This document shows positions 30,182 to 46,458 of a DNA stretch of 64,000 bases, in pieces. Where the stretch lies: contig NZ_ML660186.1 of NCBI RefSeq assembly GCF_007483665.1, positions 62,001-126,000 on the forward strand. Reading direction: 5' to 3'. The stretch is from Catellatospora sichuanensis. Lineage in GTDB: Bacteria > Actinomycetota > Actinomycetes > Mycobacteriales > Micromonosporaceae. The notes beneath the pieces were generated by a model. The model saw nothing but the letters and a program-made list of their open reading frames with translations, had not been told where the DNA came from and did no database searches. The first letter of the stretch is position 1. The number at the start of each line of letters is the position of its first letter. Both the position numbers and the translations under genes were made by a program.

Positions 30182-30196
30182 GGCGTCAACTCTCCC

Positions 30197-30217: not shown

Positions 30218-30252
30218 AAAACGCATAGGTGCATATCCCTGCACCCCACAGC

Positions 30253-30306
30253 AAAGGAAGGGCACCTTCTTAACGCTCTGCGTAGAGGAAGGGCACCTTC
30301 TTAACG
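30253..30306. repeat. Palindromic element copy 3 (direct-repeat variant)
   Basis: It has the same core as other copies, but both halves read GAAGGGCACCTTCTTAACG in one orientation, separated by CTCTGCGTAGAG. The second arm has been converted, so the long stem is lost and only short stems remain. It lies upstream of the Zur box. Confidence 0.8.
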
Positions 30307-30354
30307 GGGTCCGCGGCGCGCCACAGGTGGGAGGACCTGCGGCGGCGAGGCGGG

Positions 30355-30618: not shown

Positions 30619-30641
30619 AGCTGCGGTCCTCTCCGGCAAAC

Positions 30642-30694
30642 GTTAAGAAGGGCACCCTCTACCCCGTAAAACGATAAGAAGGTGCCCTTCCTTA
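30642..30694. repeat. Palindromic element copy 4
   Basis: GTTAAGAAGGGCACCCTCT ... AGAAGGTGCCCTTCCTTA. One arm has a C for T change (CACCCT), so the stem carries a mismatch. It lies between divergent genes, close to both starts, unlike most other copies. Confidence 0.8.
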
Positions 30695-30704
30695 CTGTAG
30701 TGAG

Positions 30705-31028
30705 GTGCTGATGCTCAATCGATTCGTGATCGCCGCCAACGAGGAGGCGTTCGTCGAGCGCGCCCACGCGGCGCTGGCGGCCCTCGCGGCCCGGCCCGGC
30801 TACCTGCGGGGGGAGCTGACCCGGTCGCTGGACGAGCCGGAGCACTGGTGCCTGCTCACCGAGTGGGAGAGCGTCGGGGCGTACCGGCGGGCGCTGGGCG
30901 GTTTCGACGTGAAGATGACGGCCACGCCCCTGCTGGCCGAATCGCTGATGGAGCCGTGCGCGTTCGAGACGCTGGCGCAGGCCGAGCCCGGCGGCGAGGT
31001 GCAGACCCGCGCCAGCGATAGGGCGTGA
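30705..31028 (+). CDS. Antibiotic biosynthesis monooxygenase (ABM)-fold protein
   Basis: A 107-residue ferredoxin-like alpha+beta barrel protein. The pattern NRFVIAANEEAFVERAHAAL, then GYLRGELTRSLDEPEHWCLLTEWES, matches the ABM/DUF4188-like stress-response enzymes, usually small dimeric oxygenases or heme-degradation-like proteins. No function can be assigned. The start is a GTG at 30705 or an ATG at 30711, only 11-17 nt after palindromic element copy 4. Confidence 0.7.
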   Translation: MLMLNRFVIAANEEAFVERAHAALAALAARPGYLRGELTRSLDEPEHWCLLTEWESVGAYRRALGGFDVKMTATPLLAESLMEPCAFETLAQAEPGGEVQTRASDRA

Positions 31029-31122
31029 CCGGGTAGGCGGCGAGCAGGTCTGAGCGCTGTCGGCCAAGTCGGGTTTCGGGCGCGGCGGCGGAGGGTGGGG
31101 CGTACGCAATATGATCGCGGCC

Positions 31123-31626
31123 ATGACCCACGCGCCCGCGCCCTCGCCCGTGCCACCCGGTCCGGGCGTCGCGCCGCCGTTCCCGGCCGCGCCCTCGGAG
31201 GGCGGCGGTACCCGTCTGGGCTGGGCGCTCGGCATCGCGGGCGGGCTGGTGGCGCTGTGCTGCGGCGGCGGCCTGGTGGCCGGGGTCGGTCTGGCCGTCA
31301 CCGGGGTGCAGGCGATCAACGAGCGGGCCCACGTCGCGGTGGGGTCCTACCTCGACGCGCTGAAGGCCAAGAAGTACGACCGGGCCTACGAGCTGCTCTG
31401 CGAGGACGAGCAGCGGCGGCTGGACCTGGCGCGATTCACCAGCCGGGAGGAGTCCCGGCCGGAGCGCATCCAGACGTACGAGCTGGGCGAGGTCGAGCTG
31501 CAGGGGACCTCGGGAATCACCCTGCCGGTCACCGAGCGCTACGCCGACGGCGACACCGAGCAGGTCGTGTACCGCCTCGCGCAGGACCCGAAGACCACCG
31601 ACCTGGAAGTCTGCGGGCGCGAGTAG
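31123..31626 (+). CDS. Pro-rich single-pass membrane protein
   Basis: A 167-residue protein I do not recognise by name. A Pro/Ala-rich cytoplasmic N-terminus (about 30 residues) precedes one strong hydrophobic helix (WALGIAGGLVALCCGGGLVAG). The extracellular domain (SYLDALKAKKYDRAYELLC...) looks like the DUF4878/NTF2-like fold common in actinobacteria. Two Cys residues in the domain could form a disulfide. The start is ATG 31123; an ATG at 31111 is also in frame. Confidence 0.75.
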   Translation: MTHAPAPSPVPPGPGVAPPFPAAPSEGGGTRLGWALGIAGGLVALCCGGGLVAGVGLAVTGVQAINERAHVAVGSYLDALKAKKYDRAYELLCEDEQRRLDLARFTSREESRPERIQTYELGEVELQGTSGITLPVTERYADGDTEQVVYRLAQDPKTTDLEVCGRE

Positions 31627-31800
31627 CCGGGGTGTCGGCGCGGCGCACCGGCGGGCTCACCACGTTCCGTGTGCAGTAGCGTTTAACCGAATGCGGGTGA
31701 CCAGAGGTGGCCCGTACCGTATCCACGTCGCGCGGATCTTCCGCCGACCCTCCGCCGACAGCCAGCCGGCGGCAACCTCCAACGGAATGGAGACCTGATC

Positions 31801-33180
<1,380 letters not shown>

Positions 33181-33195
33181 ACCCGCTGAGGTGGT

Positions 33196-33231
33196 GAGAG
33201 GTCCCCGAATCGGGTGGTTCGGGGACTTCTC
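33196..33231 (+). terminator. Hairpin terminator after glyS
   Basis: GAGAGGTCCCCGAA pairs with TTCGGGGACTTCTC across an 8-nt loop (one mismatch). It begins 16 bp after the glyS stop. Confidence 0.8.
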
Positions 33232-33278
33232 ATCCCGGCACTGCGACGTTTGCCGAGTTTGATTCGGGTCCTCCCCGG

Positions 33279-33284
33279 TAACAT
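33279..33284 (+). promoter_or_regulatory. -10-like TAACAT of the endonuclease-like gene
   Basis: TAACAT ends 7 nt before the GTG at 33292 and no ribosome site is visible. It is a candidate leaderless promoter. Confidence 0.4.
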
Positions 33285-33291
33285 ACGGACA

Positions 33292-34251
33292 GTGACCACC
33301 ATCGAGCTGAAGAAGACGCCCGGAGGCCCGGCCGAGCCGCCGCCCCGGCGCCCGGCGTGGCGGGCGGGGCTGGTCATCGCGGCCGCCCTGCTGCTGGCGG
33401 CCGTACTGGTAGGTCACCGGCTCGTGCCCAACGTGCACGGCATCGGCAGCGTGCTCGACACCATCGCCCCGTTGTTCGGCCTGGCCGTGCCGGTGCTGGC
33501 CGTCGCCGCGCTGCTGGCCCGCTCGGGCAAGGCGCTCTTGGCGGTGCTGCTGCCCGCGGTGATCTGGGCGGCGATGTTCGGCCGCGCCCTGCTGCCGCCG
33601 CCGGGCGGCCCGGTGCAGCTGCAGGTGGTAACCCAGAACCTGTACGCGGACAACCCCGACCCGCAGACCACGGTGCGGGCGCTCGCCGACGGCGGTCCCG
33701 ACCTGATCGCGCTGCAGGAGGCCTCCGGCGGCACCATCGAGACGGTCGCCGAGCAGCTCGCGAAGACCTACCCGCACTACGCGGTCCGGTCGACGGTGGG
33801 CCTGCTCAGCAAGTATCCGATCGTGGACGTCGTCGGCGTCGACACCGGTCTGGAATGGACCCGGGCGCTGCGCGCGGTCGTGCAGGCCCCGCAGGGCGAC
33901 GTCGCGGTGTATGTCGTGCACCTCGGCTCGGCGCGGATCAACGACACGGCGACCCGCGATCACACCATCGAGATGCTGGCCCAGGCGGTCCGGGCGGACA
34001 AGGCGCAGCGGGTCCTGGTGCTGGGCGATCTCAACACCGCCGCCACCGACCGGGCCATCGCGCCGCTGTCCGCGCTGCTGGACGACGCGCAGGCCGAGGC
34101 CGGCTGGGGCTACGGCTTCACGTGGCCGTCCTCGCTGCCGGTGATGCGGCCCGATCACGTGCTGTACCGGGGACTGACCGCGACGCAGGCCGGGGTGCTG
34201 CGTACCCCCGGCACCGACCATCGGGCCGTGACCTCGGGTTTCTCCTTCTGA
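33292..34251 (+). CDS. Endonuclease/exonuclease/phosphatase (EEP) domain membrane protein
   Basis: A 319-residue protein with three N-terminal hydrophobic helices (about residues 25-105) and an EEP domain outside the membrane. EEP motifs seen are TQNLYADNP, LIALQEAS (catalytic Glu), VLGDLNTAATD (Asp/Asn), MRPDHVLYRG (Asp-His) and GTDHRAV (final Asp-His). The active site looks intact, so it is a Mg2+-dependent phosphodiesterase, possibly acting on extracellular DNA or lipids. The start is a GTG at 33292, placed by the -10-like hexamer. Confidence 0.85.
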   Translation: MTTIELKKTPGGPAEPPPRRPAWRAGLVIAAALLLAAVLVGHRLVPNVHGIGSVLDTIAPLFGLAVPVLAVAALLARSGKALLAVLLPAVIWAAMFGRALLPPPGGPVQLQVVTQNLYADNPDPQTTVRALADGGPDLIALQEASGGTIETVAEQLAKTYPHYAVRSTVGLLSKYPIVDVVGVDTGLEWTRALRAVVQAPQGDVAVYVVHLGSARINDTATRDHTIEMLAQAVRADKAQRVLVLGDLNTAATDRAIAPLSALLDDAQAEAGWGYGFTWPSSLPVMRPDHVLYRGLTATQAGVLRTPGTDHRAVTSGFSF

Positions 34252-34472
34252 CTCCACCGGCCATGCACCCGTAACGTGTACGTTCCTCTTCTTGGACTAG
34301 TACTTTCGGGCAACCCCTTGGTAAGGTCTCAGTGCTCGGCTTGCCGAGTCGGCTGCCAAGCCGTCCATCAGCGCTCAAGAAACGGGTGCTGTGTCCGTCA
34401 CAGGCGAACCGTGTCCGAGGACGACCCCCGTCGCCCCGGAACACACGCGGTTCACTGCGCCGGAGGCCTGCA

Positions 34473-35291
34473 ATGACTGCAACACTCGTTCGCGAGACCG
34501 TCGTGTCCGCGTCCCCCTCGTCCCTGACCGACACCCTCGACGCGACTGCCGGCGATGTTCTGCTGCGCCGTCTCGGTGAGCTGAGCGAGCAAGACCCCGC
34601 ACATGAGGACGTGCGGCAGGAGGCCATCTGTGCCTGGCTGCCGCTGGCCGAACGCCTGGCCCGCCGCTTCCGCCATCGCGGCGTGGATGGCGACGACCTC
34701 GTGCAGGTGGCGACCATCGGCCTGATCCAGGCCGTGGACCGTTTCGACCCCTCCCGCGGCAGTGCTTTCGTGCACTTCGCGGTGCCGACCATCGTCGGCG
34801 AACTCAAGCGCTACTTCCGTGACCGGGGCTGGAGCATGCGGGTCAGTCGCCGCATGCAGGAGCTGTACCTGGACATCAACCGGGTGTCCCCGCAGCTCTG
34901 CCAGGACCTGGGCCGGTGGCCGACCGCCGACGACCTCGCCGCGCATCTCAACGTCACCGTCGAAGACGTGGTGGCCGGGATGCACTGCGCGCAGGCGTAC
35001 CGCATCAACTCCCTCAACGTCGCGGTGAGCGGCGAGGACGGCGATGTGGAGCTCGGCGAGCTGATCGGGGAGACCGACACCGTGCTGGAGTCCATTCCGG
35101 ACGTGCACGCGGTCCGGCAGTACGTCAAGGAACTGCCGGAACGTGAGCAGAAGATCCTCATGCTGCGCTTCGTTCAGGGCCACAACCAGGCCCAGATCGC
35201 GGAGCAGATCGGGGTCTCCCAGATGCACGTGTCGCGTCTGCTCAGCCGGTGCCTCGCGCAGCTGCGCGAGCGCATGCTGGCTGAGGACTGA
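34473..35291 (+). CDS. RNA polymerase sigma factor, SigB/SigF family
   Basis: A group 3 sigma-70 factor of 272 residues. Region 2 contains DDLVQVATIGLIQAVDRFDP, region 3 is the RRMQELYLDINRV...LGRWPTADDLAAHL stretch, and region 4 is REQKILMLRFVQGHNQAQIAE with an HTH. CGGAGG upstream of the ATG at 34473 sets the start. No anti-sigma or anti-anti-sigma gene is adjacent, unlike most sigB/F loci. The 221-bp upstream leader has no ORF I trust. The next gene, a GPGG-motif microprotein, is 55 bp downstream on the same strand. Confidence 0.93.
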   Translation: MTATLVRETVVSASPSSLTDTLDATAGDVLLRRLGELSEQDPAHEDVRQEAICAWLPLAERLARRFRHRGVDGDDLVQVATIGLIQAVDRFDPSRGSAFVHFAVPTIVGELKRYFRDRGWSMRVSRRMQELYLDINRVSPQLCQDLGRWPTADDLAAHLNVTVEDVVAGMHCAQAYRINSLNVAVSGEDGDVELGELIGETDTVLESIPDVHAVRQYVKELPEREQKILMLRFVQGHNQAQIAEQIGVSQMHVSRLLSRCLAQLRERMLAED

Positions 35292-35346
35292 ATCAGCAAC
35301 GGGCAGTAGCGGTTTCGTCACCGAGTTCGTGGGGCAGGAAGGAACC

Positions 35347-35490
35347 ATGGAGCTTTTACTGTGGATCCTCGCCGTGGTCCTGGTCGTTTCCGGGATCGTC
35401 TCGCTGGCACGACGCCAGATCCTGTGGGGCATCGTGCTGATCGTCATCGGTCTGCTGGTCGGACCGGGGGGCGTGAGCATGTTCTCGTAG
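35347..35490 (+). CDS. GPGG-motif small membrane protein
   Basis: A 47-residue, almost entirely hydrophobic protein with two short helices (LLLWILAVVLVVSGIV and ILWGIVLIVIGLLV) joined by ARRQ and ending in GPGGVSMFS. The GPGG box is the name-giving feature of a small actinobacterial family of unknown role. GGAAGGAACC just before the ATG supports the start. Its place directly after a stress-type sigma factor suggests joint regulation, which is inference. A strong terminator follows. Confidence 0.85.
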   Translation: MELLLWILAVVLVVSGIVSLARRQILWGIVLIVIGLLVGPGGVSMFS

Positions 35491-35510
35491 AACATCCACG
35501 CAAGGAAGCC

Positions 35511-35546
35511 GAAGGGCCGGGAAGACCATGGTCTCCCCGGCCCTTC
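35511..35546 (+). terminator. Hairpin terminator after the GPGG gene
   Basis: GAAGGGCCGGGAAGAC pairs with GTCTCCCCGGCCCTTC (one bulge) around CATG. It is 20 bp past the stop, with no U-tract, as usual here. Confidence 0.8.
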
Positions 35547-35609
35547 ACCATGTGCGGACCGAGCCGGCGGGTGCGACCCGCATCACAGGACGACACCCGC
35601 GGCCGACCG

Positions 35610-35615
35610 TACTGT
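35610..35615 (+). promoter_or_regulatory. -10-like TACTGT of the OYE gene
   Basis: TACTGT ends 6 nt before the GTG at 35622, with no ribosome site. A leaderless start is likely. Confidence 0.4.
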
Positions 35616-35621
35616 TGCGCC

Positions 35622-36689
35622 GTGACGGTACTCGGCCAGCCCCTCGAACTGCGCAGCGTGACGCTGCCCAACCGCATCGCGATGTCGCCGATGTGCCAGT
35701 ACTCGGCCGGGCCGGACGGCCTGCCCACCGACTGGCATCTGACCCACCTGGGCGCTCGCGCGGTCGGCGGGGCCGGGCTGGTCATGGCCGAGGCCAGCGC
35801 CGTGCTGCCGGAGGGCCGGATCTCGCCCCGCGACGCCGGCATCTGGTCACCGGCGCATGTGGACGCCTGGCGGCCGGTCACCGCATTCGTGGCCGCGCAC
35901 GGCGCGGTGCCCGCGATCCAGCTCGCCCACGCCGGGTTCAAGGCGTCCACCTGGTGGCCGTTCGCGCAGGAGCGGGGCGGAGTGCCCGACGCCGACGGCG
36001 GCTGGCAGCCGGTCGGGCCGGGCGCAGAGCCGTTCGTGCCGGCGTACCGCACGCCCCGGGCCCTCGACGAGGCCGGCATCGCCGCGGTGATCGCCGCATT
36101 CGCACAGGCCGCGGTGTACGCGGTCGACGCCGGTTTCCAGGCCGTGGAGATCCATGCGGCGCACGGCTACCTGCTCCACGAGTTCTACTCGCCGCTGACC
36201 AACCAGCGCACCGACGGCTGGGGCGGCGACCGCGCCGCGCGCATGCGCCTGGCCGTGGCGGTCGCGACGGCGGTACGCGACGCCGTCGGCCCCGACGTGC
36301 CGGTGCTGGCCCGGGTCTCCGCGACCGACTGGGTCGACGGCGGCTGGGACGTCACCGACACCGTCGCCCTGGCCCGCGAGCTGGCCGCGGCCGGGGTCGA
36401 CCTGATCGACTGCTCCTCGGGCGGTGCCGCCCCGCACGCCGACATCCCGGTCGGCCCCGGCTACCAGGCCCCGCTGGCGGAGCAGGTGCGCCGCGACGCC
36501 GGGGTGCCCACCGGCGCGGTCGGCCTGATCACCGAACCCGAGCAGGCCGAGCGCATCGTCGAGGACGGTCAGGCCGATCTCGTGCTGATCGGGCGGGAAC
36601 TGCTGCGCGACCCGTATTGGCCGCGCCGGGCGCTGGCCAAGCTCGGCGGGCAGCCGCACTGGCCGGACCAGTACGCCCGCGCCTTCTGA
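35622..36689 (+). CDS. Old Yellow Enzyme (YqjM-type NADH:flavin oxidoreductase)
   Basis: FMN-dependent ene-reductase TIM barrel, 355 residues. The redox-tuning cysteine of YqjM-type enzymes is C25 in MSPMCQYSA. Other family blocks are IQLAHAG, HAAHGYLLHEFYSPLTNQR (substrate-binding His and His) and VGLITEPEQAE, with the FMN phosphate site IGRELLRDPYWP near the end. Such enzymes reduce C=C bonds of enones and nitro compounds with NAD(P)H. The start is a GTG at 35622 behind TACTGT. It is not visibly linked to neighbours. Confidence 0.93.
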   Translation: MTVLGQPLELRSVTLPNRIAMSPMCQYSAGPDGLPTDWHLTHLGARAVGGAGLVMAEASAVLPEGRISPRDAGIWSPAHVDAWRPVTAFVAAHGAVPAIQLAHAGFKASTWWPFAQERGGVPDADGGWQPVGPGAEPFVPAYRTPRALDEAGIAAVIAAFAQAAVYAVDAGFQAVEIHAAHGYLLHEFYSPLTNQRTDGWGGDRAARMRLAVAVATAVRDAVGPDVPVLARVSATDWVDGGWDVTDTVALARELAAAGVDLIDCSSGGAAPHADIPVGPGYQAPLAEQVRRDAGVPTGAVGLITEPEQAERIVEDGQADLVLIGRELLRDPYWPRRALAKLGGQPHWPDQYARAF

Positions 36690-36878
36690 CGACCGTCGGC
36701 CCGCAGCCGGGTCGCGACCGCGCTCAGGTGGCCGGAACGCCGCCGTCAGCGCCGTCCTGGTTCCTGTGCTCGCCTTCGGCAGATCAGGGCAAGGACGGAG
36801 TGGCCGCCCAACCTCGGGCCGGCGGTATTGCCAGGCGCGAGCCGGATGCCGGGGCTGCGCTGTGTCGGTGCGCCCGCC

Positions 36879-36884
36879 TAGCGT
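36879..36884 (+). promoter_or_regulatory. -10-like TAGCGT of the alpha/beta hydrolase
   Basis: TAGCGT ends 7 nt before the ATG at 36892. The preceding 200 bp show no ORF or repeat of note. Confidence 0.4.
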
Positions 36885-36891
36885 GGCGGGC

Positions 36892-37614
36892 ATGACGACA
36901 TTCGTACTCGTGCCCGGAATGTGGCTCGGCGCGTGGGCCTGGCGCGACGTGGCGTCGCGGCTGGCCGAAGCAGGCCACGATCCGCGACCGGTGACGCTGA
37001 CGGGCGTCGCCGAGCGGGCCGCCGAGGTGACGCCGCAGACCGACCTGGACACCCACGTCGCCGATGTCGTCGCGCTGGTCGAGGGCGCGGACCTGCGGGA
37101 CGTGGTGCTGGTCGGGCACAGCTACGGCGGCATGGTGGTCTCCGTGGCGGCGGGACAGCTGGCCGCGCGGCTGCGCCGGGTGGTGTACATCGACAGCGGG
37201 CCGCTGCCCGAGGGCACGTCGCAGTTCGACACGAACTCACCCGAGCAGCAGGAACGCATCCTCGCCGAGATCGGTGACGGCTTCCTGGCCCCCGTGCCGC
37301 CGTTCCTGCCGGACCCGGACGACCCGTCCCTGGCCGGCCTCGACGCCGACCTGCTCGCCCTGCTGCGCGAACGCGGCACCCCGCACCCGTTCGCCGCGGC
37401 CCGCCAGCCCGTCCACTACCACCCGGGCTCCTTCTCGGTGCCGTCCGCCCTGATCACCTGCGTGTTCCCGGCGGCCCAGGTGCACGAGATGATCGCCGCC
37501 GGCCACCCGTACTTTGCCCTGCTCGCCGAGGCCGACGTACTCGAACTCCCCACCGGCCACTGGCCCATGCTCAGCCGCCCCACCGACCTGGCCACCCTCC
37601 TCACCCCGCTATGA
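36892..37614 (+). CDS. Alpha/beta hydrolase
   Basis: A 240-residue esterase/hydrolase-fold enzyme, cytosolic. The oxyanion-hole region is LVPGMWLGAW, the nucleophile elbow is GHSYGG (Ser near residue 79), and the catalytic His is in LPTGHWPM at the C-terminus; the acidic residue is probably in the CVFPA...HEM strand region. It resembles small carboxylesterases of the MhpC/EstC type; the substrate is unknown. The start ATG follows a -10-like hexamer. The stop is 4 bp before palindromic element copy 5. Confidence 0.88.
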   Translation: MTTFVLVPGMWLGAWAWRDVASRLAEAGHDPRPVTLTGVAERAAEVTPQTDLDTHVADVVALVEGADLRDVVLVGHSYGGMVVSVAAGQLAARLRRVVYIDSGPLPEGTSQFDTNSPEQQERILAEIGDGFLAPVPPFLPDPDDPSLAGLDADLLALLRERGTPHPFAAARQPVHYHPGSFSVPSALITCVFPAAQVHEMIAAGHPYFALLAEADVLELPTGHWPMLSRPTDLATLLTPL

Positions 37615-37617
37615 GCA

Positions 37618-37671
37618 AAGGAAGGGCACCTTCTTAACGCTCCACGTTATAGAAGGTGCCCTTCTTAACGG
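37618..37671. repeat. Palindromic element copy 5
   Basis: AAAGGAAGGGCACCTTCTTAACG ... AGAAGGTGCCCTTCTTAACGG, with full arms, starts 4 bp after the hydrolase stop. The loop includes GCTCCACGTTAT. Confidence 0.85.
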
Positions 37672-37794
37672 TTTACCGGGGTTGAGCTGCTCGGATGCGA
37701 GTGAATTCGGGTGCAGACCGGTGTCCGGCGGGGAACTGCGGCAGCCCGGCGGTGCGGAGACGTAGGTTGATCGCCGGACGAGGGGAGGCGGGCG

Positions 37795-38310
37795 GTGGAC
37801 GATCGGATCGTGATTCGCCGGGCCGGGCCGGACGACATTCCGGCCGTGCTGGCGCTGATGGACGTGGCCGGGGACTGGCTCGTGGCGCAGGGGCGGCCCG
37901 GACAGTGGGGCACCGGGCGGCAGTCGGCGAACCCGCGGCGCCAGGCGCAGGCCCGGGACTGGGGCGAGGCCGACGGCTTCCACATCGCCGAGATCGACGG
38001 TGTCGTGGTGGGTGCGCTGGTGGTGGGCCTGCCTGCCGACTTCGCGCCGCAGCCGTCCGAACCGGACCTGTACGTGAACCTGCTGCTGGCCGACGTCCGC
38101 CGGCGCGGGCAGGGGATCGGCGCGCTGCTGCTCGACCACGCCCGCGAGCTCGCCCGCGCGACCGGGATCGGCCTGCTGCGACTGGACTGCTACGACGGCG
38201 ACGACCGCAAGCTGGTGCGCTACTACGAAGGCCAGGGCTTCACCGCGACCGCTCCGCTGACGTTCGGAGCCTGGACCGGGCGGGTGATGGAGCAGTCACT
38301 GCACAGCTGA
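37795..38310 (+). CDS. GNAT-family N-acetyltransferase
   Basis: A 171-residue acetyl-CoA-dependent acyltransferase. The acetyl-CoA loop is the DVRRRGQGIGALLLDHA block (Q/RxxGxG/A pattern, near residues 102-118), with LLRLDCYDGDDRKLVRYYEGQGF as the C-terminal strand and helix. The substrate is not predictable. The start is a GTG at 37795. It sits between palindromic element copies 5 and 6. Confidence 0.88.
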   Translation: MDDRIVIRRAGPDDIPAVLALMDVAGDWLVAQGRPGQWGTGRQSANPRRQAQARDWGEADGFHIAEIDGVVVGALVVGLPADFAPQPSEPDLYVNLLLADVRRRGQGIGALLLDHARELARATGIGLLRLDCYDGDDRKLVRYYEGQGFTATAPLTFGAWTGRVMEQSLHS

Positions 38311-38399
38311 GGCCAGCCGGCGCACGGGTGACCGCGCGTCCATGCCTGATCCGTGGCTCAGCAACCGCGATATGCGCAGGCAGCGCCGCTGTCGCGTTT

Positions 38400-38448
38400 G
38401 GAAGGGCACCTTCTATAACGCGGAGCGTTAAGAAGGTGCCCTTCCTTG
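38400..38448. repeat. Palindromic element copy 6
   Basis: GGAAGGGCACCTTCTATAACG / CGTTAAGAAGGTGCCCTTCCTT with loop CGGAG. It is the most compact copy and folds as one near-perfect stem. It is 90 bp after the GNAT stop and 84 bp before the isoprenoid synthase. Confidence 0.85.
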
Positions 38449-38531
38449 CTTCTGTCCGGGCGGGGGTTGGCGCGGGGGTGGGATCATGGGGCTGCGGGGT
38501 CGTCAGGGTCCGCGGGGAGGTGGTCAGCCTC

Positions 38532-40877
38532 ATGAGTGTCGCTACGGAGCTGTTGGAGCCGTTTCCGTTCCGGCAGGAGGATCTCGAGCACCGCAGGCTC
38601 GAGGAGGGTGTGCGGCACACGCTGGCGCACTACGCCGGTTGGCGTGATGCGAACCCGGCAGCGATCGGGTCGCATGTGGAGCTGTACACCGAGCAGCTGC
38701 GGGCGATCGCCGGGCGGCACACGCCCGCGGCCGCGCTGCTGCGCGGGCTCTACGCGCCGCGCCGACGGCGGGAGCTGCGCGAGCAGGCGCTGCTGGAGCT
38801 GAACTACTTCGGCGTCTACAACCTCAGCGAGGTGCCCGACCCGGCCGACGTGGCCCGCGGCGAGGTGCTCGCGCGGGCACACGCCCGTACGGTGCGCGAG
38901 GTCGTCGAGGGCATCGAGCGCGGGCGGGGCGTGGCCGGGGTGGTGGAGTCGCTGGAGCGGCGCTTTCCGACGCTGCGCGGGGTCGCCGAGACGCGCTGGC
39001 TGGCCGAGCGGCTGGACCGGCTGCACCGCACCCTGCCGGAGACGGTCGTGCAGGCGGGGGCGATGGGCAAGGTGGTCCGCACGCTGGTGGGGGTGCTGGC
39101 CATCGGGGGGTACGACACCCGCGACGCGGGACGGGCCGCGGTGCGCGAACACCTCACCCGGATCCTGCCCGGCGCGTACGCGTACGGGGCCGCGTACGCG
39201 GTGATCGACGACAGCTTCCAGGACCTGCCCGGCGAGCACATGCTGCCGCGCGAGCGGGACCGGCTGCACCGGCTGATCCTGCACGGCCTGTCCACCGGCG
39301 GCGCGATCGACCCCGGCGACGTGCCCGACCATCCGCTCGCCGAGGAGATGCACGACCTGTACGGCATCGCGCTGCAGGTCTACCCGTTCGGCACGCACCG
39401 GCACCTCTACCACGCGGCCGAGTCGATGTACCTGGCCCAGCACCGCGACGCGGCCCGCCGCCCGGACGAGCTGCTGGAGGGCGGGCTGGAGTCGGCGTAC
39501 CCGGACATCTTCCTCAAGGCCGGGCTGAGCCGGGTGGTGGCGAACATCCTCGGCCGCCGCAGCCTCGACGACGGCTTCTACGCCCGCTGCCTCAATACGA
39601 TCTTCCTGAGCCAGTTCAAGGACGACCTCGCCGACCGCGAAGAGGACCGCAAGGCCGGGCGGATGACCCCGTTCACGCACCCCGGTGACGGCCGGACCAA
39701 CCCGCTGCTCGACCTGTTCGCCTACGACGCGTACGTCGTGGACCAGGTGTACGGCGGCGACCCGGTCGCCCGCGACGCGCTGACCGGTGTCGGCGCGATC
39801 AAGCTGGCCACGCACCTGTGCGCGGATCCACCGGGCACGCTGCGGCTGCTCGACCAGTACCCGGTCACCCCGGAGATCGCCGTGTTCCTGCGTACCGCGG
39901 CCGGGGTGCCCCGGCGGGTGCTGCCCCAGCTGACCACCTCGGACCTGCGCCTCAAGCGGGAGGCGGCCGCGGTGATGGGGCGCCGCGACCCGAACAGCGT
40001 CGACGCGCGCACCTTCGTGCTCGACCGGCTGCCGCGCATCAACGAGATCGTGCACAACTGCCACGCCGAGGTCAACGCGGCCGAGCTGGCGCCGATCCTG
40101 GCGTACACGATGGACGGTCCCGCCAAGCGGCTGCGGCCCGCGCTGACCCTGATGCTGGCCGAAGGCCTGGGCGTACGCGGCGAGATGCCCGAGTCGCTGC
40201 TCGGCGCGATCGAGCTGTTCCACACCGCCAGCCTGATCTTCGACGACCTGCCCGCCCAGGACGACGCCACGCTGCGCCGGGGCCGCCCGGCCGCGCACAC
40301 CGTGTTCGACGAGGGCAGCGTGCAGCTCGCCGCGATCTCGATGCTGTCCTCGGGCTTCGGCATGCTGGCCCGGCTCGACCGGCACTACCCGGCGCACCGG
40401 GTCACCGACGTCGTCGCGTACGTCGGCACGGTGCTCGGTCCGCAGCGGCTGTGCCGCGGCCAGTATCTCGACCTGCGCTACGCCCGCGACGCGTCGCCGG
40501 TCACCGGCGAGGACATCCTGGAGATGTACCGGCTGAAGACGTCGACCATGGTGGAGGCCGCGCTGGTGCCGCTGCTGATGCTGCTGGACCGGCCCCGGGT
40601 CGAGATCGAGCTGGTCACCCGGTATGCCGACCATGCGGGCATCGTGTTCCAGGCCCGCGACGACATCCTCGACGCGACCGCGTCCAGCGAGCAGCTCGGC
40701 AAGGACTCGGGCAACGACGTGGGCAAGGCCAACCTGGTCCGGGTGTACGGGCTCGCGCAGGCGCGGCGGCTCATGGAGCAGCACCGCGACGCCGCGGTGG
40801 ACAGCTGCGCCGCGCTGCCCTTCGACACCCGCCTGCTGCAGGGCATCGTCGAGCACTTCGCCGCCCGCGGCCGGTGA
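38532..40877 (+). CDS. Two-module isoprenoid synthase (polyprenyl synthetase family fused to a second class I module)
   Basis: A 781-residue protein, roughly twice normal length. The C-terminal half (about 500-781) is a recognisable trans-prenyl diphosphate synthase: first Asp-rich motif DDLPAQDD at 571, RRGRPAAH next, and second motif DDILD at 710. The N-terminal half has a weaker but parallel pair: IDDSFQD at 225-231 and KDDLADREED at 363-372. The motif spacing is about 139 residues in both halves, as expected for the class I isoprenoid fold. I infer an N-terminal terpenoid-synthase or second prenyltransferase module feeding on the C-terminal product. No NSE cyclase motif is obvious. The ATG at 38532 has a weak ribosome site. 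A DoxX gene follows. Confidence 0.85.
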   Translation: MSVATELLEPFPFRQEDLEHRRLEEGVRHTLAHYAGWRDANPAAIGSHVELYTEQLRAIAGRHTPAAALLRGLYAPRRRRELREQALLELNYFGVYNLSEVPDPADVARGEVLARAHARTVREVVEGIERGRGVAGVVESLERRFPTLRGVAETRWLAERLDRLHRTLPETVVQAGAMGKVVRTLVGVLAIGGYDTRDAGRAAVREHLTRILPGAYAYGAAYAVIDDSFQDLPGEHMLPRERDRLHRLILHGLSTGGAIDPGDVPDHPLAEEMHDLYGIALQVYPFGTHRHLYHAAESMYLAQHRDAARRPDELLEGGLESAYPDIFLKAGLSRVVANILGRRSLDDGFYARCLNTIFLSQFKDDLADREEDRKAGRMTPFTHPGDGRTNPLLDLFAYDAYVVDQVYGGDPVARDALTGVGAIKLATHLCADPPGTLRLLDQYPVTPEIAVFLRTAAGVPRRVLPQLTTSDLRLKREAAAVMGRRDPNSVDARTFVLDRLPRINEIVHNCHAEVNAAELAPILAYTMDGPAKRLRPALTLMLAEGLGVRGEMPESLLGAIELFHTASLIFDDLPAQDDATLRRGRPAAHTVFDEGSVQLAAISMLSSGFGMLARLDRHYPAHRVTDVVAYVGTVLGPQRLCRGQYLDLRYARDASPVTGEDILEMYRLKTSTMVEAALVPLLMLLDRPRVEIELVTRYADHAGIVFQARDDILDATASSEQLGKDSGNDVGKANLVRVYGLAQARRLMEQHRDAAVDSCAALPFDTRLLQGIVEHFAARGR

Positions 40878-40975
40878 CACGGCGAAATCCGTCCCGCCCG
40901 GACCGATGAGTTCACCGCGCGGCATCCGTCTACACGGATGAACGCGATGACAGAACTTCGGGAAGGGAACCCGCT

Positions 40976-41389
40976 ATGACCACGTACGCCGCCCCCGCCG
41001 TCCGCCCCCGCCGCGCCGTCCACATCGCCACGTGGACCGGGCAGGTGCTGCTCGGCCTGTTCTTCATCACCGTCGGGGCGACCAAGTATCTGCCCGCTTT
41101 CGAGGCGCCGGCGAGCTTCGGCGAGGTGGGCCTGGGGATGTGGTTCATCTACTTCGTCGGCGCCTGCGAGCTGGCCGGCGGTATCGGGCTGCTGATCCCC
41201 CGGCTGTCGGGGGTGGCGGCGATCGGCCTGGTCGGCCTGATGACCGGAGCGACGATCATGAACCTGTTCGTGCTGCCCGGCGCGGCGTCGAACGCGATCA
41301 TGTCCGGTGCGCTGATCGTGGTCTTCGCGCTGATCGCGCGGGTCCGGGGTCCGTACACCCAGGCCCTGGTCCGCAGCTTCCGCCGCTGA
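40976..41389 (+). CDS. DoxX-family membrane protein
   Basis: A 137-residue four-helix membrane protein. The family start is WTGQVLLGLFFITVGATKYL, followed by IYFVGACELAGGIGLLIP and two more helices. DoxX proteins occur with quinone or redox enzymes, but the role of this subfamily is unclear. GGGAAGGGAACCCGCT precedes the ATG. It lies 98 bp after the isoprenoid synthase and just before a poly-G/poly-C tract, so its downstream region is not reliable. Confidence 0.85.
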   Translation: MTTYAAPAVRPRRAVHIATWTGQVLLGLFFITVGATKYLPAFEAPASFGEVGLGMWFIYFVGACELAGGIGLLIPRLSGVAAIGLVGLMTGATIMNLFVLPGAASNAIMSGALIVVFALIARVRGPYTQALVRSFRR

Positions 41390-41410
41390 GGGCGGCAGGG
41401 TTCACTGTGC

Positions 41411-41519
41411 GGCGTGGGGGGGTGGGGGGGGGGGGGGGGGGGGGGGGGGGGAGAGGCCCGGGGGGGGGGGGGGGGGGGCCCCCCCCGCGCCCCGCCCGCC
41501 CCCCCCCCCCCCCCCCCGC
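41411..41519. other. Extreme poly-G then poly-C tract, probable assembly artefact
   Basis: Starting near 41411 there are runs of G up to about 30 long, broken only by single T, A or AGAGGCCC interruptions, then abruptly runs of C up to about 20. A long G run facing a long C run is what joining two read ends that both carry poly-G tails would give. It fills most of the 209-bp gap between the convergent doxX and dusB genes. A real G-quadruplex-forming locus is possible but less likely. Confidence 0.8.
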
Positions 41520-41598
41520 CGCAACGGTGGGTTCGCGCCGGCCCCCCGCTCCGACGGCAGACCCGCCGGCCCGCCGAAAGCGGGTCGGCGGTGGCGGG

Positions 41599-42726
41599 TC
41601 AGCCGCCGGAGTCGTCGTGTTCGGCGTCCTCGGGGACGGCTTGGGAGTCGCGGTCGTCGAGCCAGCCGTAGGGCAGCACCACCTTGGCGGGGGAGTTGGT
41701 GCGGCCGCGCGGCTGGCCCAGGTTGGCCACCGGGAACGGCGCGTCGTGGTCCAGCTTGCCGAGCAGGTCGTCCAGCTCCATCAGCGACGACGCCATGGCC
41801 ATCGAGCGGCGCAGCTCCGACCCCGCCGGGAAGCCCTTGAGATACCACGCGACGTGCTTGCGGAAGTCGGTGACGGCTTCGCGTTCGGCGCCCCACCAGT
41901 GCACCAGCAGTTCGGCATGGCGGCGCATGACCTGTGCGACCTCACCCAGGTCGGGCATGACCCGCTCGGGGCGGCCGGCGAACGCGGCGGCCAGGTCGGC
42001 GAACAGCCACGGCCGGCCCAGGCAGCCCCGGCCCACCACGACGCCGTCGCAGCCGGTCTCGGCGACCATGCGCAGCGCGTCGTCGGCCTCCCAGATGTCG
42101 CCGTTGCCGAGCACCGGCACGTCCAGCGCCTGCTTGAGGGTCGCGATGGACTCCCAGTCGGCCTCGCCGGAGTAGCGCTGGGCGGCGGTGCGCGCGTGCA
42201 GGGCCACCCACTTCACGCCGGCCTCCTGCGCGATCAGCCCGGCCTCGACGTACGTCAGGTGGTCGTCGTCGATGCCCTTGCGCATCTTGATGGTGACCGG
42301 GATGCCGGCGGGCGCGGCCGCGTCCACGGCGGCCTTGATGATCGAGCCGAACAGGCGGCGCTTCCACGGGATCGCCGAGCCGCCGCCCTTGCTGGTGATC
42401 TTCTTGACGCTGCACCCGAAGTTGAGGTCGATGTGATCGGCGAGGTTCTCGTCCACCACCCGCCGCACCGCCTTGGCGGTGATCTCCGGGTCGACGCCGT
42501 AGAGCTGCATGCTGCGGGGGTGCTCGTCCGGACCGAACTCGATCATCTTGTCGGTCTTCGGGTTGCGCACCGCCAGCGCGACCGTGGTGATCATCTCGCA
42601 CACGTAGATGCCGGCCCCCTGCTCGCGGCAGAGCTGCCGGAACGCGACATTGGTGATGCCCGCCATCGGCGCCAGCACCACCGGCGGATCGACGGGATAC
42701 CGCCCCAACATCAACGTCGCAGTCAC
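41599..42726 (-). CDS. dusB: tRNA-dihydrouridine synthase DusB-like
   Basis: FMN/NADPH enzyme that reduces uridine to dihydrouridine in tRNA, 375 residues. The barrel opens with APMAGITNVAFRQL. The LNFGCSVKKITSKGGGSA block carries the catalytic Cys, followed by TIKMRKG, WVALHARTAAQRYSG, VLGNGDIW and GVVVGRGCLGRPWLF. A GTG at 42726 starts the normal N-terminus; longer reading opens into Gly-rich sequence and is unlikely. The C-terminal ~25 residues are acidic and end close to the suspect poly-G/poly-C tract. Confidence 0.94.
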   Translation of the reverse strand: MTATLMLGRYPVDPPVVLAPMAGITNVAFRQLCREQGAGIYVCEMITTVALAVRNPKTDKMIEFGPDEHPRSMQLYGVDPEITAKAVRRVVDENLADHIDLNFGCSVKKITSKGGGSAIPWKRRLFGSIIKAAVDAAAPAGIPVTIKMRKGIDDDHLTYVEAGLIAQEAGVKWVALHARTAAQRYSGEADWESIATLKQALDVPVLGNGDIWEADDALRMVAETGCDGVVVGRGCLGRPWLFADLAAAFAGRPERVMPDLGEVAQVMRRHAELLVHWWGAEREAVTDFRKHVAWYLKGFPAGSELRRSMAMASSLMELDDLLGKLDHDAPFPVANLGQPRGRTNSPAKVVLPYGWLDDRDSQAVPEDAEHDDSGG

Positions 42727-42802
42727 GCCCCCAAGAATCTCACGCCCACCCCCACCACCCCGACCCCCCGTAACCCACCCCACACCCCGTTGCCAGGGCC
42801 AC

Positions 42803-42893
42803 CTGCAAGATCGCGACGATCTTGCGCGAACTGTTGACCTTATGACCGTTTTGCGCGTGTCGTCAGCGCAGTTTCCGCAAGATCGTCGCGATC
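42803..42893. repeat. Inverted repeat with self-complementary arms
   Basis: GATCGCGACGATCTTGC (42809-42825) is exactly complementary to 42877-42893. The left arm with its flank also folds on itself (GCAAGATCG-CGA-CGATCTTGC), so one long hairpin and a short hairpin compete. It lies between two leftward genes and overlaps the stop region of the upstream one. Confidence 0.8.
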
Positions 42894-43164
42894 ATGCGGC
42901 CTGGTCGGGGCGTAGGCGGGCCGGGTCGATTTCGCGGGTGGGGTGGCGGCGGAGGTAGTCGGCCTCCAGCTCGATCATGCGTTCGGTGTGGTGGGCCAGG
43001 GACTGGTCGGAGCCGTGGCGCAGGGTGTCGTGGCGGGTGCGGTGGATCGCCGCCAGTTCGCGGAGCAGGTCTTCGTCGGGGAGGTCCCGGGCGGGTATGC
43101 CGCCGGCCGGCTCGGGCTGCTGCCAGGCGTAGACGACCTCCACCACTTCGTCGTAGTCGCGCAT
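42892..43164 (-). CDS. DUF6158-family small protein
   Basis: A 90-residue acidic helical protein of the family I recall as DUF6158, found in Micromonosporaceae and relatives. The conserved core is LPDEDLLRELAAIHRTRHDTL, then HGSDQSLAHHTERMIELEADYL. No catalytic motif is clear, and the function is unknown. It starts at ATG 43164, with TAACCC six nucleotides before it. The end overlaps the right arm of the inverted repeat at 42877-42893. Confidence 0.75.
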   Translation of the reverse strand: MRDYDEVVEVVYAWQQPEPAGGIPARDLPDEDLLRELAAIHRTRHDTLRHGSDQSLAHHTERMIELEADYLRRHPTREIDPARLRPDQAA

Positions 43165-43237
43165 GGGGGAGGGTTACCCGGAGTTCGGGCAGTTCAACCG
43201 TCTCGCCCGGTTTCGTCGCAGTAGTGACGGGTAAGAG

Positions 43238-43912
43238 TCAGCGCTTGCCGCGCAGCACGGTCTGCACGGCTTGGGCCTCGTACGCGGCGTCGGCCGCCTC
43301 CTGGGTGAGCGCGTGCGAGGAGACGCGGGCCACCTCGGCGGTGCGCCGGGCGTGGCGGGCCCGGGAAGCGGCCACGTGGTAGAGCCGGGCCGCCTCGGCG
43401 TCCTCGGCGCGCAGCCGGGACAGCTCGTGCGAGCGGTCCTGGCGGGACTGGTCCCAACCGTCGACCTGCTGCCACACCGCGCGCAGCTGCTCCATGGACA
43501 GGTCGCCGCGCTTGTACGCGGCACGTGCGGCGCGGGAGACCTCGCGCAGGTTCTCCGCGGAGACCACGGCCTCGCTCGTCTCGGGCGGCAGTGCCTCGGT
43601 TGCCTCCTCCAGCACCTGTGCGGCCGCCAGGTGGGCCTGCCAGGCGGCGTCGCGCTCGGCCTCGGCGGCCGCCAGCTCGGCCGCGGTGCGTTCGGCGAGC
43701 AGCACCGCGGTGCGGGCCGCCTCGAGCACCTCGGCGGCGACCTCCTCCAGCTCGCGGGCCTCGGCGGTCAGCTTCGCGCGCGCGGTCGCGCTGAGCCGCC
43801 CTGGGCGCACGCCGTCGCGCCGGGACTGCGCCTGCGCCAGCAGCCCCAGGAAAAGCACCGCGAGCAGCGTGAACGGCAGCCCGCCGAGCAGGACCACGGC
43901 GGATGAGGACAC
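43238..43912 (-). CDS. Single-pass membrane protein with coiled coil
   Basis: A 224-residue protein with an N-terminal hydrophobic helix (VVLLGGLPFTLLAVLFLGLL) and then a long Ala/Glu-rich coiled coil (about residues 45-120, for example EVAAEVLEAARTAVLLAERT). The C-terminal part is helical and charged. I know of no named family. The start is a GTG at 43912 placed 6 nt after a minus-strand TAGGGT. It is divergent from the FAD oxidoreductase. Confidence 0.75.
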   Translation of the reverse strand: MSSSAVVLLGGLPFTLLAVLFLGLLAQAQSRRDGVRPGRLSATARAKLTAEARELEEVAAEVLEAARTAVLLAERTAAELAAAEAERDAAWQAHLAAAQVLEEATEALPPETSEAVVSAENLREVSRAARAAYKRGDLSMEQLRAVWQQVDGWDQSRQDRSHELSRLRAEDAEAARLYHVAASRARHARRTAEVARVSSHALTQEAADAAYEAQAVQTVLRGKR

Positions 43913-43918
43913 ACCAGC

Positions 43919-43924
43919 ACCCTA
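43919..43924 (-). promoter_or_regulatory. -10-like TAGGGT of the coiled-coil protein
   Basis: On the minus strand TAGGGT ends 6 nt before the GTG at 43912. Same layout as the recO promoter. Confidence 0.4.
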
Positions 43925-44030
43925 GTATCGATCCTCGTTGATCGTTAGGGCTGGCGGAAAATCGTCACATCCGCCGCGTGAATCGCCACCCGGGTCGGCG
44001 AGGTCGGCGCGCGGCGTCGAAGATGGACGG

Positions 44031-45383
44031 ATGACCGAGAGCGCCCCGAGCATGTCCGCGTCCACGGCCGTCGTGATCGGTGCCGGCATCGCGGGCCTGT
44101 GCGCCGCGCGGGTGCTGGCCGACCGGTACGCCCGGGTGGTCGTGCTGGACCGGGACCAGCTGCCGCCGTCGGCGGCGCCGCGCCGCGGCGTGCCGCAGGG
44201 CAACCATGGCGCGGTGTTGCTCGCGGCCGGGCAGCGGGCGCTCGGGGAACTGTTCGAGGGCCTGGTGGACGAGTTGGTCGGGGCGGGCGCGGTGCCGTTC
44301 GAGCCGGGCACCGAGATGATCTTCTACCGGTACGGCGGTGTCTGGGCGAAGTCGCCGACCGGGATCACCCTGATGTCGTTCAGCCGCCCGCTGCTGGAGC
44401 ACACCGTGCGCGGCCGGGTGTCGGCGCTGCCCGGCGTCGAGATCCGGGCCGGGGTCGCGGTCGCCGGGCTGGCGGGCGCGGACGGCGTGGTCACCGGGGT
44501 GGTGCTGGACAGCGGCGAGACGCTGCCGTGCGCGCTGGTGGTCGACTGCTCGGGCCGGGGCAGCCGCTCCGACCGCTGGCTCGCCGAGCTGGGCCACGCC
44601 GCCCCGGCGGTCACCGAGATCAAGATCGGCGTCGGCTACACCACCCGCCTCTTCCAGCGCAAACCTGGCGACCTGAGCGACGCCACCGCGGTGTTCGTGC
44701 TGCCCGCCGCGCCGCGCGAGACCCGGGTGGGGCTGGCCCTGCCGATCGAGGACGATCGCTGGCTGATCTCGATGGGCGGCTGGCACGGCGACTTCCCGGC
44801 GCCGGGCGACCCGGACGCGTTCGCCGCGCACGCCCGCAGCCTGCCCCACCCCGGCATCGCGCAGCTCATCGACAAGTGCGAGCCGGTGACCGAGGCCGTC
44901 TCGTTCACCTTCCCGTCCAACCGCCGCCGCCACTTCGAGAACCTGCCCGCCCACCCGGCCGGCTACCTCGCCCTCGGTGACGCGATCTGCAGCTTCAACC
45001 CGATCTACGGCCAGGGCATGACCTGTGCCGCGCTGGAGGCCCAGGCCCTGGCCCGGCAGCTCGACGCGCACGGCCTGGCCGACGCCGCGCTCGCCGCCGA
45101 CTATTACCAGGAGGCAGCTCACATCCTGACCACCCCCTGGGGCTTCGCCGCGGGCGGCGACTTCGCCTACCCGCAGACCCAGGGCGAGCGCCCGCGCGGT
45201 ATCGCCCTGCGCAACCGCTACTCCCGTCGCATTCAACTCGCCGCCCAGGTCGACCCGGAGGTCCGGCGCATCTTCACCGCCGTCCAGCACCTGCTCACCC
45301 CGCCAGGCGTCCTCCGCAAACCTGCCATGGTCCTGCGCGTCCTGCGCCTCTCCCGCCGAGCCCCCGGCGCCCGCACCCGCTGA
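44031..45383 (+). CDS. FAD-dependent monooxygenase/epoxidase-like oxidoreductase
   Basis: A 450-residue flavoprotein. The dinucleotide motif is VVIGAGIAGLCAARVL (residues 13-28), followed by the DRDQLP strand end. GDAICSFNPIYGQGMTCAALEA is the second FAD-binding block of the PHBH-like group. Related proteins include epoxidases on polyether pathways and halogenase-like enzymes; no halogenase motif (WxWxIP) is seen. It starts at ATG 44031. It is the only oxidative tailoring-type enzyme within 6 kb of the isoprenoid synthase at 38532, but four unrelated genes separate them, so linkage is not argued. Confidence 0.85.
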   Translation: MTESAPSMSASTAVVIGAGIAGLCAARVLADRYARVVVLDRDQLPPSAAPRRGVPQGNHGAVLLAAGQRALGELFEGLVDELVGAGAVPFEPGTEMIFYRYGGVWAKSPTGITLMSFSRPLLEHTVRGRVSALPGVEIRAGVAVAGLAGADGVVTGVVLDSGETLPCALVVDCSGRGSRSDRWLAELGHAAPAVTEIKIGVGYTTRLFQRKPGDLSDATAVFVLPAAPRETRVGLALPIEDDRWLISMGGWHGDFPAPGDPDAFAAHARSLPHPGIAQLIDKCEPVTEAVSFTFPSNRRRHFENLPAHPAGYLALGDAICSFNPIYGQGMTCAALEAQALARQLDAHGLADAALAADYYQEAAHILTTPWGFAAGGDFAYPQTQGERPRGIALRNRYSRRIQLAAQVDPEVRRIFTAVQHLLTPPGVLRKPAMVLRVLRLSRRAPGARTR

Positions 45384-45403
45384 CACCCCGCGGGGCGCAC
45401 GCG

Positions 45404-45463
45404 GCAGTTTCGGGGAAACTGCGTCCATGGGCGAGGTCGTTGGTGCAGTTTCCCCGAAACTGC
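45404..45463. repeat. 19-bp perfect inverted repeat, arms self-complementary
   Basis: GCAGTTTCGGGGAAACTGC (45404-45422) and its complement (45445-45463) are separated by 22 nt. Each arm is itself a hairpin (GCAGTTT / AAACTGC). It lies between convergent genes, 21 bp after the FAD enzyme stop and 36 bp before the stop of the F420 enzyme. Confidence 0.85.
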
Positions 45464-45498
45464 AGGCAGTGCAGCGCTCCGCGCAGGCGCGGAGCGGG

Positions 45499-46458
45499 TC
45501 AGGCCGCGCTGAGGGCGGGCAGGAGTTGCTTCTCGGCGAAATCGAGGAAGTCGGCCTGGCTGTCTCCGCCGATCTGGACCAGGGCCACTTCGGTGAACCC
45601 GGCGTCGGCGAACTTCCGCACCGCCGCGACGTGCTTGTCCAGGTCGGGGCCGCAGGAGATCTTCTCGGCGACCTGCTCCGGAGTCATCGAGGCGGTCGCC
45701 GCGGCGAACGAGCGCGGGTGCGGCATCTCGGCGTTGACCGCCCAGCCCAGGTCGAACCAGCGGAACTGGTCGTGGGCGATCCGGGCGCACTCGTCGGCGT
45801 CCGGACCCCAGCAGATCGCGACCTGGCCGTAGCGGGGCCCGGTGCCGCCGGCGCGCTCGTACTGCTCGATCAGCTCTGCTTTCGGCTCGGTCGCGATCAG
45901 CGCCGCGTCGTGGCGGGCGGCCAGCCGGATCGAGGACGGCCCGGAGACCGCGACGCCGATCGGCACCCGCTCGTCGGGCAGGTCCCACAGCCGCGCCTCG
46001 GGCACCTCGAAGTACTCGCCGAGGTGGTGCACGACCTCGCCGGCCAGCAGCGGGCCGATGATCTCCAGGGCCTCGGACAGCATCGCGTGGCGCTGCACCG
46101 CCTGCGGGTACGCCCCCACCACGTGCTCGTTGAGGTTCTCCCCGGCGCCCAGCCCGAGTGTGAACCGGCCCCGCGACATGACGCCCACGGTCGCCGCCAT
46201 CTGCGCCACGACCGTCGGGTGATAACGCATGGTGGGGCAGGTGACGAAGGAGACCAGCGGGATCCGCTCGGTGGCGTGGGCGGCCGCACCCAGCACCGAC
46301 CAGGCGAACGGGGCGTGCCCCTGCTCGGCCAGCCACGGGTAGTAGTGGTCGGAGCAGACCGCGAAGTCGAACCCGGCCGCCTCGGCGCGTACCGCGTCGT
46401 CGACCAGTTCCCGCGGCCCGCGCTGCTCGGTCATGAGCGTGTAACCGATGTTGGTCAT
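45499..46458 (-). CDS. F420-dependent LLM-class oxidoreductase (TIGR03557/FGD-like)
   Basis: A 319-residue luciferase-like monooxygenase-fold TIM barrel. IGYTLMTEQRGPRELVD opens the chain, then FAVCSDHYYPWLAEQGHAPFAW and GLGAGENLNEHVVG, motifs of the F420-dependent glucose-6-phosphate dehydrogenase-like subgroup. It should use cofactor F420 to oxidise or reduce a small substrate that is not predictable here. It starts at ATG 46458 with TAATCA 6 nt before it. It is divergent from the RecQ-like helicase, with only 57 bp between the starts. Confidence 0.9.
   Translation of the reverse strand: MTNIGYTLMTEQRGPRELVDDAVRAEAAGFDFAVCSDHYYPWLAEQGHAPFAWSVLGAAAHATERIPLVSFVTCPTMRYHPTVVAQMAATVGVMSRGRFTLGLGAGENLNEHVVGAYPQAVQRHAMLSEALEIIGPLLAGEVVHHLGEYFEVPEARLWDLPDERVPIGVAVSGPSSIRLAARHDAALIATEPKAELIEQYERAGGTGPRYGQVAICWGPDADECARIAHDQFRWFDLGWAVNAEMPHPRSFAAATASMTPEQVAEKISCGPDLDKHVAAVRKFADAGFTEVALVQIGGDSQADFLDFAEKQLLPALSAA

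Follow-up and report, generated by a model that had tools for sequence, protein, structure and literature searches.

A candidate self-feeding terpene synthase of Catellatospora sichuanensis joins an unclassified class I-fold module to a prenyl diphosphate synthase

Introduction

The closest described relatives in architecture are the fungal prenyltransferase-terpene synthases (PTTS). Fusicoccadiene synthase PaFS, for example, consists of an N-terminal cyclase and a C-terminal prenyltransferase making geranylgeranyl diphosphate (GGPP), connected by a flexible linker of ~70 residues (PMC8190136). One account speaks of PTTS as "occurring only in fungi" (PMC8307374), another describes bifunctional enzymes as fungal (PMC10509563), and a different fusion pairs a cyclase with a truncated reductase (PMC11574762). 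Here we report on a gene in a 64,000-nt stretch of the Catellatospora sichuanensis genome (contig NZ_ML660186.1, positions 62,001 to 126,000; hereafter the window) that encodes a two-module isoprenoid synthase of 781 residues (38532..40877; all features discussed lie on the plus strand). As had been proposed from the sequence, it shares with PTTS the order of modules, a class I fold followed by a prenyltransferase, within a single chain of ~700-800 residues. It differs in its bacterial host, in an N-terminal module without sequence match to any terpene synthase family, and in the motifs of that module, which are DDxxxD and DDxxDxxxD where PTTS have DDXXD/E and NSE/DTE. The protein most likely works like a PTTS, yet because the NSE feature fails we do not file it as one.

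Two other groups offer comparisons for the N-module. The terpene synthases resembling isoprenyl diphosphate synthases (IDS), namely the fungal IDS-like terpene synthases (ILTPS) and the insect IDS-type enzymes, can likewise have an Asp-rich second motif without NSE, and most of their motifs contacting isopentenyl diphosphate (IPP) are missing. An IDS-derived terpene synthase need not carry the NSE triad (PMC7484799), and termite GGPP synthase-like proteins retain just the first aspartate-rich motif (FARM) and one other motif (PMC13143122). In actinomycetes, non-canonical terpene synthases hidden from sequence searches were found by structure, one of them solitary (PMC11234867). A search of the titles and abstract starts of open-licence PMC papers found no bacterial prenyltransferase-terpene synthase fusion, which is a weak negative; profile searches likewise turned up no already described family with this two-module architecture in a bacterium. 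What is new is such a fusion in a bacterium, with a class I-fold module that is unclassified.

Results and Discussion

Architecture and conservation of the two-module gene

The gene starts with the ATG at 38532, where the proteins of relatives also begin; the frame is open further 5′, back to 37695 (1060 aa). Its reading frame, length and motif positions had been given correctly in the original prediction, with DDSFQD at residue 226, DDLAD at 364, DDLPAQDD at 571 and DDILD at 710. Structure prediction places a class I-fold module at the N terminus and a prenyltransferase module at the C terminus of one chain. The former divides into an extension that is helical in the models (residues 1-138; 38532..38945) and a core with a class I isoprenoid synthase fold, a probable terpene synthase (residues 139-477; 38946..39962). 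Of the 50 matches listed by the VIA structural comparison, 40 start at model residue 85-151 and the other 10 earlier.

The pairing of Asp-rich motifs in the two halves, the starting point of the original prediction, is real and not due to chance, as the Asp residues are invariant in all 17 members compared (a count that includes the window protein and sets apart a degraded eighteenth, L090). The motifs of the N-half are nonetheless of another type: a motif scan found DDxxxD plus DDxxDxxxD in 15/15 N-halves versus 0/15 C-halves. The equal spacing that had been remarked upon is a coincidence of the window protein, since N-half spacing ranges from 130 to 138 residues in the 15 scanned.

The window protein is 51-96% identical to thirteen other members, and searching with the N-half yielded six named loci, all of them from Catellatospora species (57-94% identity). 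Within the host's genus, 9 of 11 genomes have the two-module protein, the host assembly itself (G000) comprising 9.45 Mb in 65 contigs. The N-half was found in 14/101 nearest genomes and in 17/300 family genomes; the latter number drops to 16, one of them partial, once a chance match is discarded (G915, E 6.8e-4, a short match in a frame unlike the family). It was further seen in 4/394 genomes of the class, own genome included, and solely in the own genome among 397 of the order (single-sequence query) and 396 of the phylum. In these larger searches scoring was limited to the best 4 or 5 candidates of each genome, so absence elsewhere is not firm. With overlaps removed, 19 genomes from 8 genera and 3 families carry the N-half, 18 of them at full length; G834, whose match covers about query residues 10-149 only, was excluded from the full-length counts. 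The C-half follows in frame in 18/18 full-length copies, and the genome searches revealed no free-standing N-module. No plasmid matched the protein by tblastn. All 21 pair-by-region estimates of the nonsynonymous to synonymous substitution ratio (seven pairs, each for N-extension, N-core and C-module) were below 1 (0 to 0.70), the lowest values falling in the C-module for the four closest pairs; they are crude because third positions are GC-saturated.

The C-module is a prenyl diphosphate synthase by family, motifs and predicted fold

Residues 489-781 (39996..40874) constitute an E-type prenyl diphosphate synthase. PF00348 matches residues 519-742 with 131.6 bits against a cut-off of 27, and the module shares motifs and predicted fold with the farnesyl diphosphate and GGPP synthases of this family, the difference being its fusion behind a module without detectable sequence kinship to it. 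Its FARM is DDLPAQDD (571-578; 40242..40265), with A566 and S567 at positions -5 and -4, followed by the IDS motif RRGRPAAH (582-589; 40275..40298; identified by motif scan), which has no counterpart in the N-module. Further along are the KT motif KTS (669-671; 40536..40544) and the second aspartate-rich motif (SARM) DDILD (710-714; 40659..40673). The corresponding patterns (DDxxxxD, RRGxPxxH, KT[SGA] and DDxxD) were present in 15/15 C-halves scanned. Among the 17 members, D571, D572, D577, D710, D711 and D714 are identical throughout, as are K532 and R535 of helix B; T670 is kept in 15, the remaining two having Ser. The view of the C-half as a normal trans-prenyl diphosphate synthase is thereby borne out. 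Its class follows from sequence and predicted fold; in activity and chain length, it is probably a GGPP synthase.

The N-module has a predicted class I fold and matches no recognized family by sequence

The structure model, suggested earlier as a check on the N-half, returned a class I isoprenoid fold, with weaker results from Foldseek; an N-half lacking this fold, named beforehand as an outcome that would refute the proposal, was thus not what the model showed. It is all-helical with the metal motifs near helix ends, as in class I terpenoid synthases: the first, DDSFQD (226-231; 39207..39224), is of the DDxxxD type and lies towards the end of helix 201-230, and the second, DDLADREED (364-372; 39621..39647), is of the DDxxDxxxD type and begins close to where helix 349-367 ends. 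Among the 50 VIA matches listed, 45 were terpene synthases, which ranked first, and 5 were IDS. Ahead of both metal motifs lies GKVVR (179-183; 39066..39080), which resembles the IPP-binding helix of IDS, and between them KAGLSR (329-334; 39516..39533), whose conserved Lys, Ser and Arg are candidates for a pocket; all three (K329, S333, R334) are altered in L090.

Across the 17 members, seven motif Asp residues (D226, D227, D231, D364, D365, D368 and D372) are identical, and K180, R183, Q303, D306, K329, S333, R334, Q361 and R377 are equally invariant. GKxxR occurred in 15/15 N-halves scanned, as opposed to 0/15 each for RRGxPxxH and KT[SGA]; G219 occupies the position of the IDS His. Two of three MAFFT modes aligned GKxxR with the KRLR of the C-module (K532/R535) and D231 with D577, and all three aligned Q361, D364, D365 and D368 with Q707, D710, D711 and D714; none paired K329 with K669. 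The class IB motifs DYLDNLxD and DY(F/L/W)IDxxED and the class ID (PeuTPS) motif RxxKD were absent from all 15. The Asp residues of DDxxDxxxD at 0, +4 and +8 reproduce the spacing of the NSE/DTE triad. However, IDS SARMs often carry Asp at +8 as well, so this spacing is indecisive.

Profile searches assigned the N-module to no family. Neither PF00348 nor PF00494 (squalene/phytoene synthase, SQS/PSY) matched any of 14 N-halves at E <= 10, bearing in mind that HMMER filters discard most matches above E 0.1, and the terpene synthase profiles PF19086 and PF03936 had no match in the same 14. Elsewhere in the host genome, PF19086 did pick three frames with four domains in all. Two of these domains share a single 772-aa frame (G000:C2:497352-499040), which we take to be plausibly a geosmin-type synthase; single terpene synthase domains are found on contigs C7 and C11.

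In profile-profile comparison by hhalign, the whole N-half reached P values of 0.14 against the C-halves and 0.082 against an IDS set, and the N-core 0.043 against IDS, 0.065 against C-halves, 0.11 against SQS/PSY and 0.19 against terpene synthases. We had noted by eye a likeness of the second N-half motif, QFKDDLADREEDRKAGR, to SQS/PSY, which hhalign did not support. Controls were mixed: C-halves versus IDS paralogues (4e-25) and IDS paralogues versus SQS/PSY (3e-4) succeeded, whereas C-halves versus SQS/PSY (0.018) or terpene synthases (0.09) and terpene synthases versus SQS/PSY (0.49) failed. As the method misses accepted superfamily relations, the null results for the N-half count for little. 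The sets were also shallow and uneven: the motif filter kept 18 of 30 SQS/PSY loci, some maybe in the wrong frame, and of four terpene synthase loci the two that were used are one 772-residue frame seen twice.

Judged by sequence, the N-module is an unclassified family; among the non-canonical classes, the comparison by motif covered IB and ID. It resembles the non-canonical classes IB and ID-IF (SalTPS and NpsTPS representing IE and IF) in having a class I-like fold unrecognizable by sequence, PeuTPS also being encoded away from terpene genes, and differs in lacking the motifs of IB and ID; no IDS fusion is mentioned for these classes in the excerpt of the report consulted (PMC11234867). ILTPS and insect IDS-type terpene synthases are recognizable relatives of GGPP or farnesyl diphosphate synthases. 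The N-module is not detectably so (hhalign not significant, with shallow profiles), and it keeps GKxxR.

A probable bifunctional terpene synthase and its alternatives

We think it rather probable that the protein is a bifunctional, self-feeding terpene synthase. Building on sequence, conservation, predicted folds and the fusion, all of which are shown here, we infer its substrates, order of steps and product as follows. By head-to-tail condensation of dimethylallyl diphosphate with IPP, the C-module would make an all-trans prenyl diphosphate, in all likelihood GGPP. The tethered N-module would then take over this diphosphate through Mg2+ bound by DDxxxD (226-231) and DDxxDxxxD (364-372), with basic side chains, among them K329, R334 and R377, helping to hold it. 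Expulsion of pyrophosphate would leave a carbocation that the module would convert to a cyclic or linear terpene. Since the fusion sets the consumer beside the producer, one gene standing alone can cover the whole route from C5 units. About evenly balanced, in our estimate, is the broader proposition that this is a bacterial assembly-line terpene synthase arisen independently of PTTS, with a distinct non-canonical class I cyclase (GKxxR, DDxxxD, DDxxDxxxD) so far found only fused, turning C5 units into a diterpene or sesterterpene by means of one gene. Were the cyclase unrelated by sequence, producer-consumer tethering would have evolved more than once. If true, the proposal would also add a class of non-canonical terpene synthases that goes unflagged by the profiles of Pfam and NCBIfam. 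A single gene for the whole pathway could, moreover, easily be tested in E. coli.

The idea of a cyclase in the N-half, already part of the original prediction, draws on the structural ranking of terpene synthases slightly above IDS in a predicted model, and several observations weigh against it. The main one is the retention of GKxxR, an IPP-site motif in IDS, in 17/17 N-halves. In a Melampsora GGPP synthase, a change of R81, which that paper equates with the KKxR Arg and an IPP contact, abolished IDS activity and conferred terpene synthase activity (PMC7484799); the kept GKxxR therefore speaks against the N-half having simply lost the use of IPP. R183 of this motif, invariant in 17/17, is the presumed equivalent of the helix-B Arg that contacts IPP and that ILTPS lose. 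Moreover, the canonical NSE/DTE triad was found in 0/15 N-halves, in line with the earlier remark that it was not evident. In the VIA ranking, terpene synthases and IDS lie just 2 Z units apart, with one tobacco enzyme accounting for 11 of the 45 terpene synthase matches, and Foldseek with the N-module gave no match at E <= 0.001, unrelated membrane proteins being among those listed. Profile-profile support for any family is absent, no conserved tailoring genes were seen beside the gene, and the degraded N-half of L090 still has D226, D365, D368, D372 and R377.

Some of these points would suit a second prenyltransferase, extending the C-module product with IPP or joining a pair of allylic diphosphates in an irregular head-to-head or head-to-middle fashion. 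Besides the invariant GKxxR and the 5 IDS among the 50 listed VIA matches, the second motif of the N-half recalls by eye both the IDS SARM and the second motif of SQS/PSY, on both of which hhalign placed it without significance. Yet RRGxPxxH and KT[SGA] are missing throughout, Gly replaces the IDS His, PF00348 and PF00494 do not match, terpene synthases top the structural ranking, and the hhalign values for IDS and SQS/PSY stay poor, albeit with a method that misses accepted kinships; on balance, we regard a second prenyltransferase as rather unlikely.

More doubtful still is transfer of the prenyl chain to a non-diphosphate acceptor. MoeN5 of moenomycin biosynthesis, with an IDS-like fold doing another transfer, is a precedent (PMC7839719), and loss of RRG and His with the cationic GKxxR kept could suit another anionic acceptor; against this, no acceptor-making gene recurs alongside across genera at the loci examined, where gene calling was rough. 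That prenyl diphosphate synthases can be heteromeric, as the titles of 3krf and 5xn6 indicate, lends some plausibility to a non-catalytic N-module, regulating or scaffolding the C-module like the small subunits of those enzymes, and the L090 frame is intact despite catalytic losses in both modules. Such a partner would not need seven invariant motif Asp residues along with K180, R183, Q303, D306, K329, R334, Q361 and R377, and we consider it very improbable.

Divergent relatives

L090 (G1287:C35; L093:8251-10377), from a third actinobacterial family, is a two-module homologue with a 708-codon frame intact from the first Met and a third-position GC content of 0.97-0.99 in each of four blocks. 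Its N-half shows K180R, Q303R, D306A, K329E, S333G, R334A, N338T, Q361R and D364H and lacks D227 and D231, with R183, D226, D365, D368, D372 and R377 retained. Its C-half shows K532G, Q644R, K669T, Q707R and D710A and lacks the FARM-RRG-H block, D714 and K724, with R535, H564, D571 and D711 retained; the alignment is uncertain around the gaps. This joint loss of active sites suggests mutual dependence of the modules, with the reservation that this one case could be plain decay; L090 is possibly a paired pseudoenzyme. Its losses nominate a catalytic set for the N-half, a natural guide to the residues that matter. The L090 gene adjoins ftsK-like and rimO-like genes, named by eye from their translations.

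L088 and L089, from related genomes of another actinobacterial family, carry a T/S/Q/P-rich low-complexity insertion behind the first helix of the C-module. Its length differs between the two, and it might resemble a flexible tether.

Genomic context

A scan of ten neighbouring open reading frames (33214-46458) found no biosynthetic gene cluster around the gene. The neighbours comprise an endonuclease/phosphatase, a sigma factor, an alpha/beta hydrolase, GNAT, DoxX, Dus, an FAD oxidoreductase, a luciferase-like enzyme and two frames without match; they are housekeeping or unrelated genes, and the two-module gene stands alone. A tailoring role is conceivable for the FAD oxidoreductase and the luciferase-like enzyme, which are located 3 to 5 kb off and beyond Dus. 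Neighbours vary between genera: of the directly adjacent genes Dus alone recurs outside Catellatospora, in one other genus (L025), whose locus also shares a further unassigned gene cluster; two more gene clusters are each represented elsewhere in L028. In several loci genes were overlooked by the gene caller, and the Pfam runs covered the neighbours in the window. PADLOC gave no match, nor did Rfam at gathering scores across 30000-43500.

The DoxX-like gene encodes a small membrane protein (40976-41389, same strand) ~100 bp downstream of the two-module gene. It is similarly placed in L004 and L030, whereas in L002 and L003 the downstream distance is ~1.75 kb; it was not called at the remaining loci. 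Between DoxX and Dus (~41390-41600), several frames are very Gly/Pro-rich, pointing to long G/C runs; this stretch is possibly poorly assembled. Finally, a dispersed palindromic repeat with the core TTAAGAAGGTGCCCTTC or its complement occurs at 5779, 30257-30302, 30676, 37621-37664 and 38401-38445, some copies being partial and one lying directly upstream of the two-module gene. Genome-wide, the core has 72 exact copies, 35 in forward and 37 in reverse orientation, compared with 0 for a reversed control.
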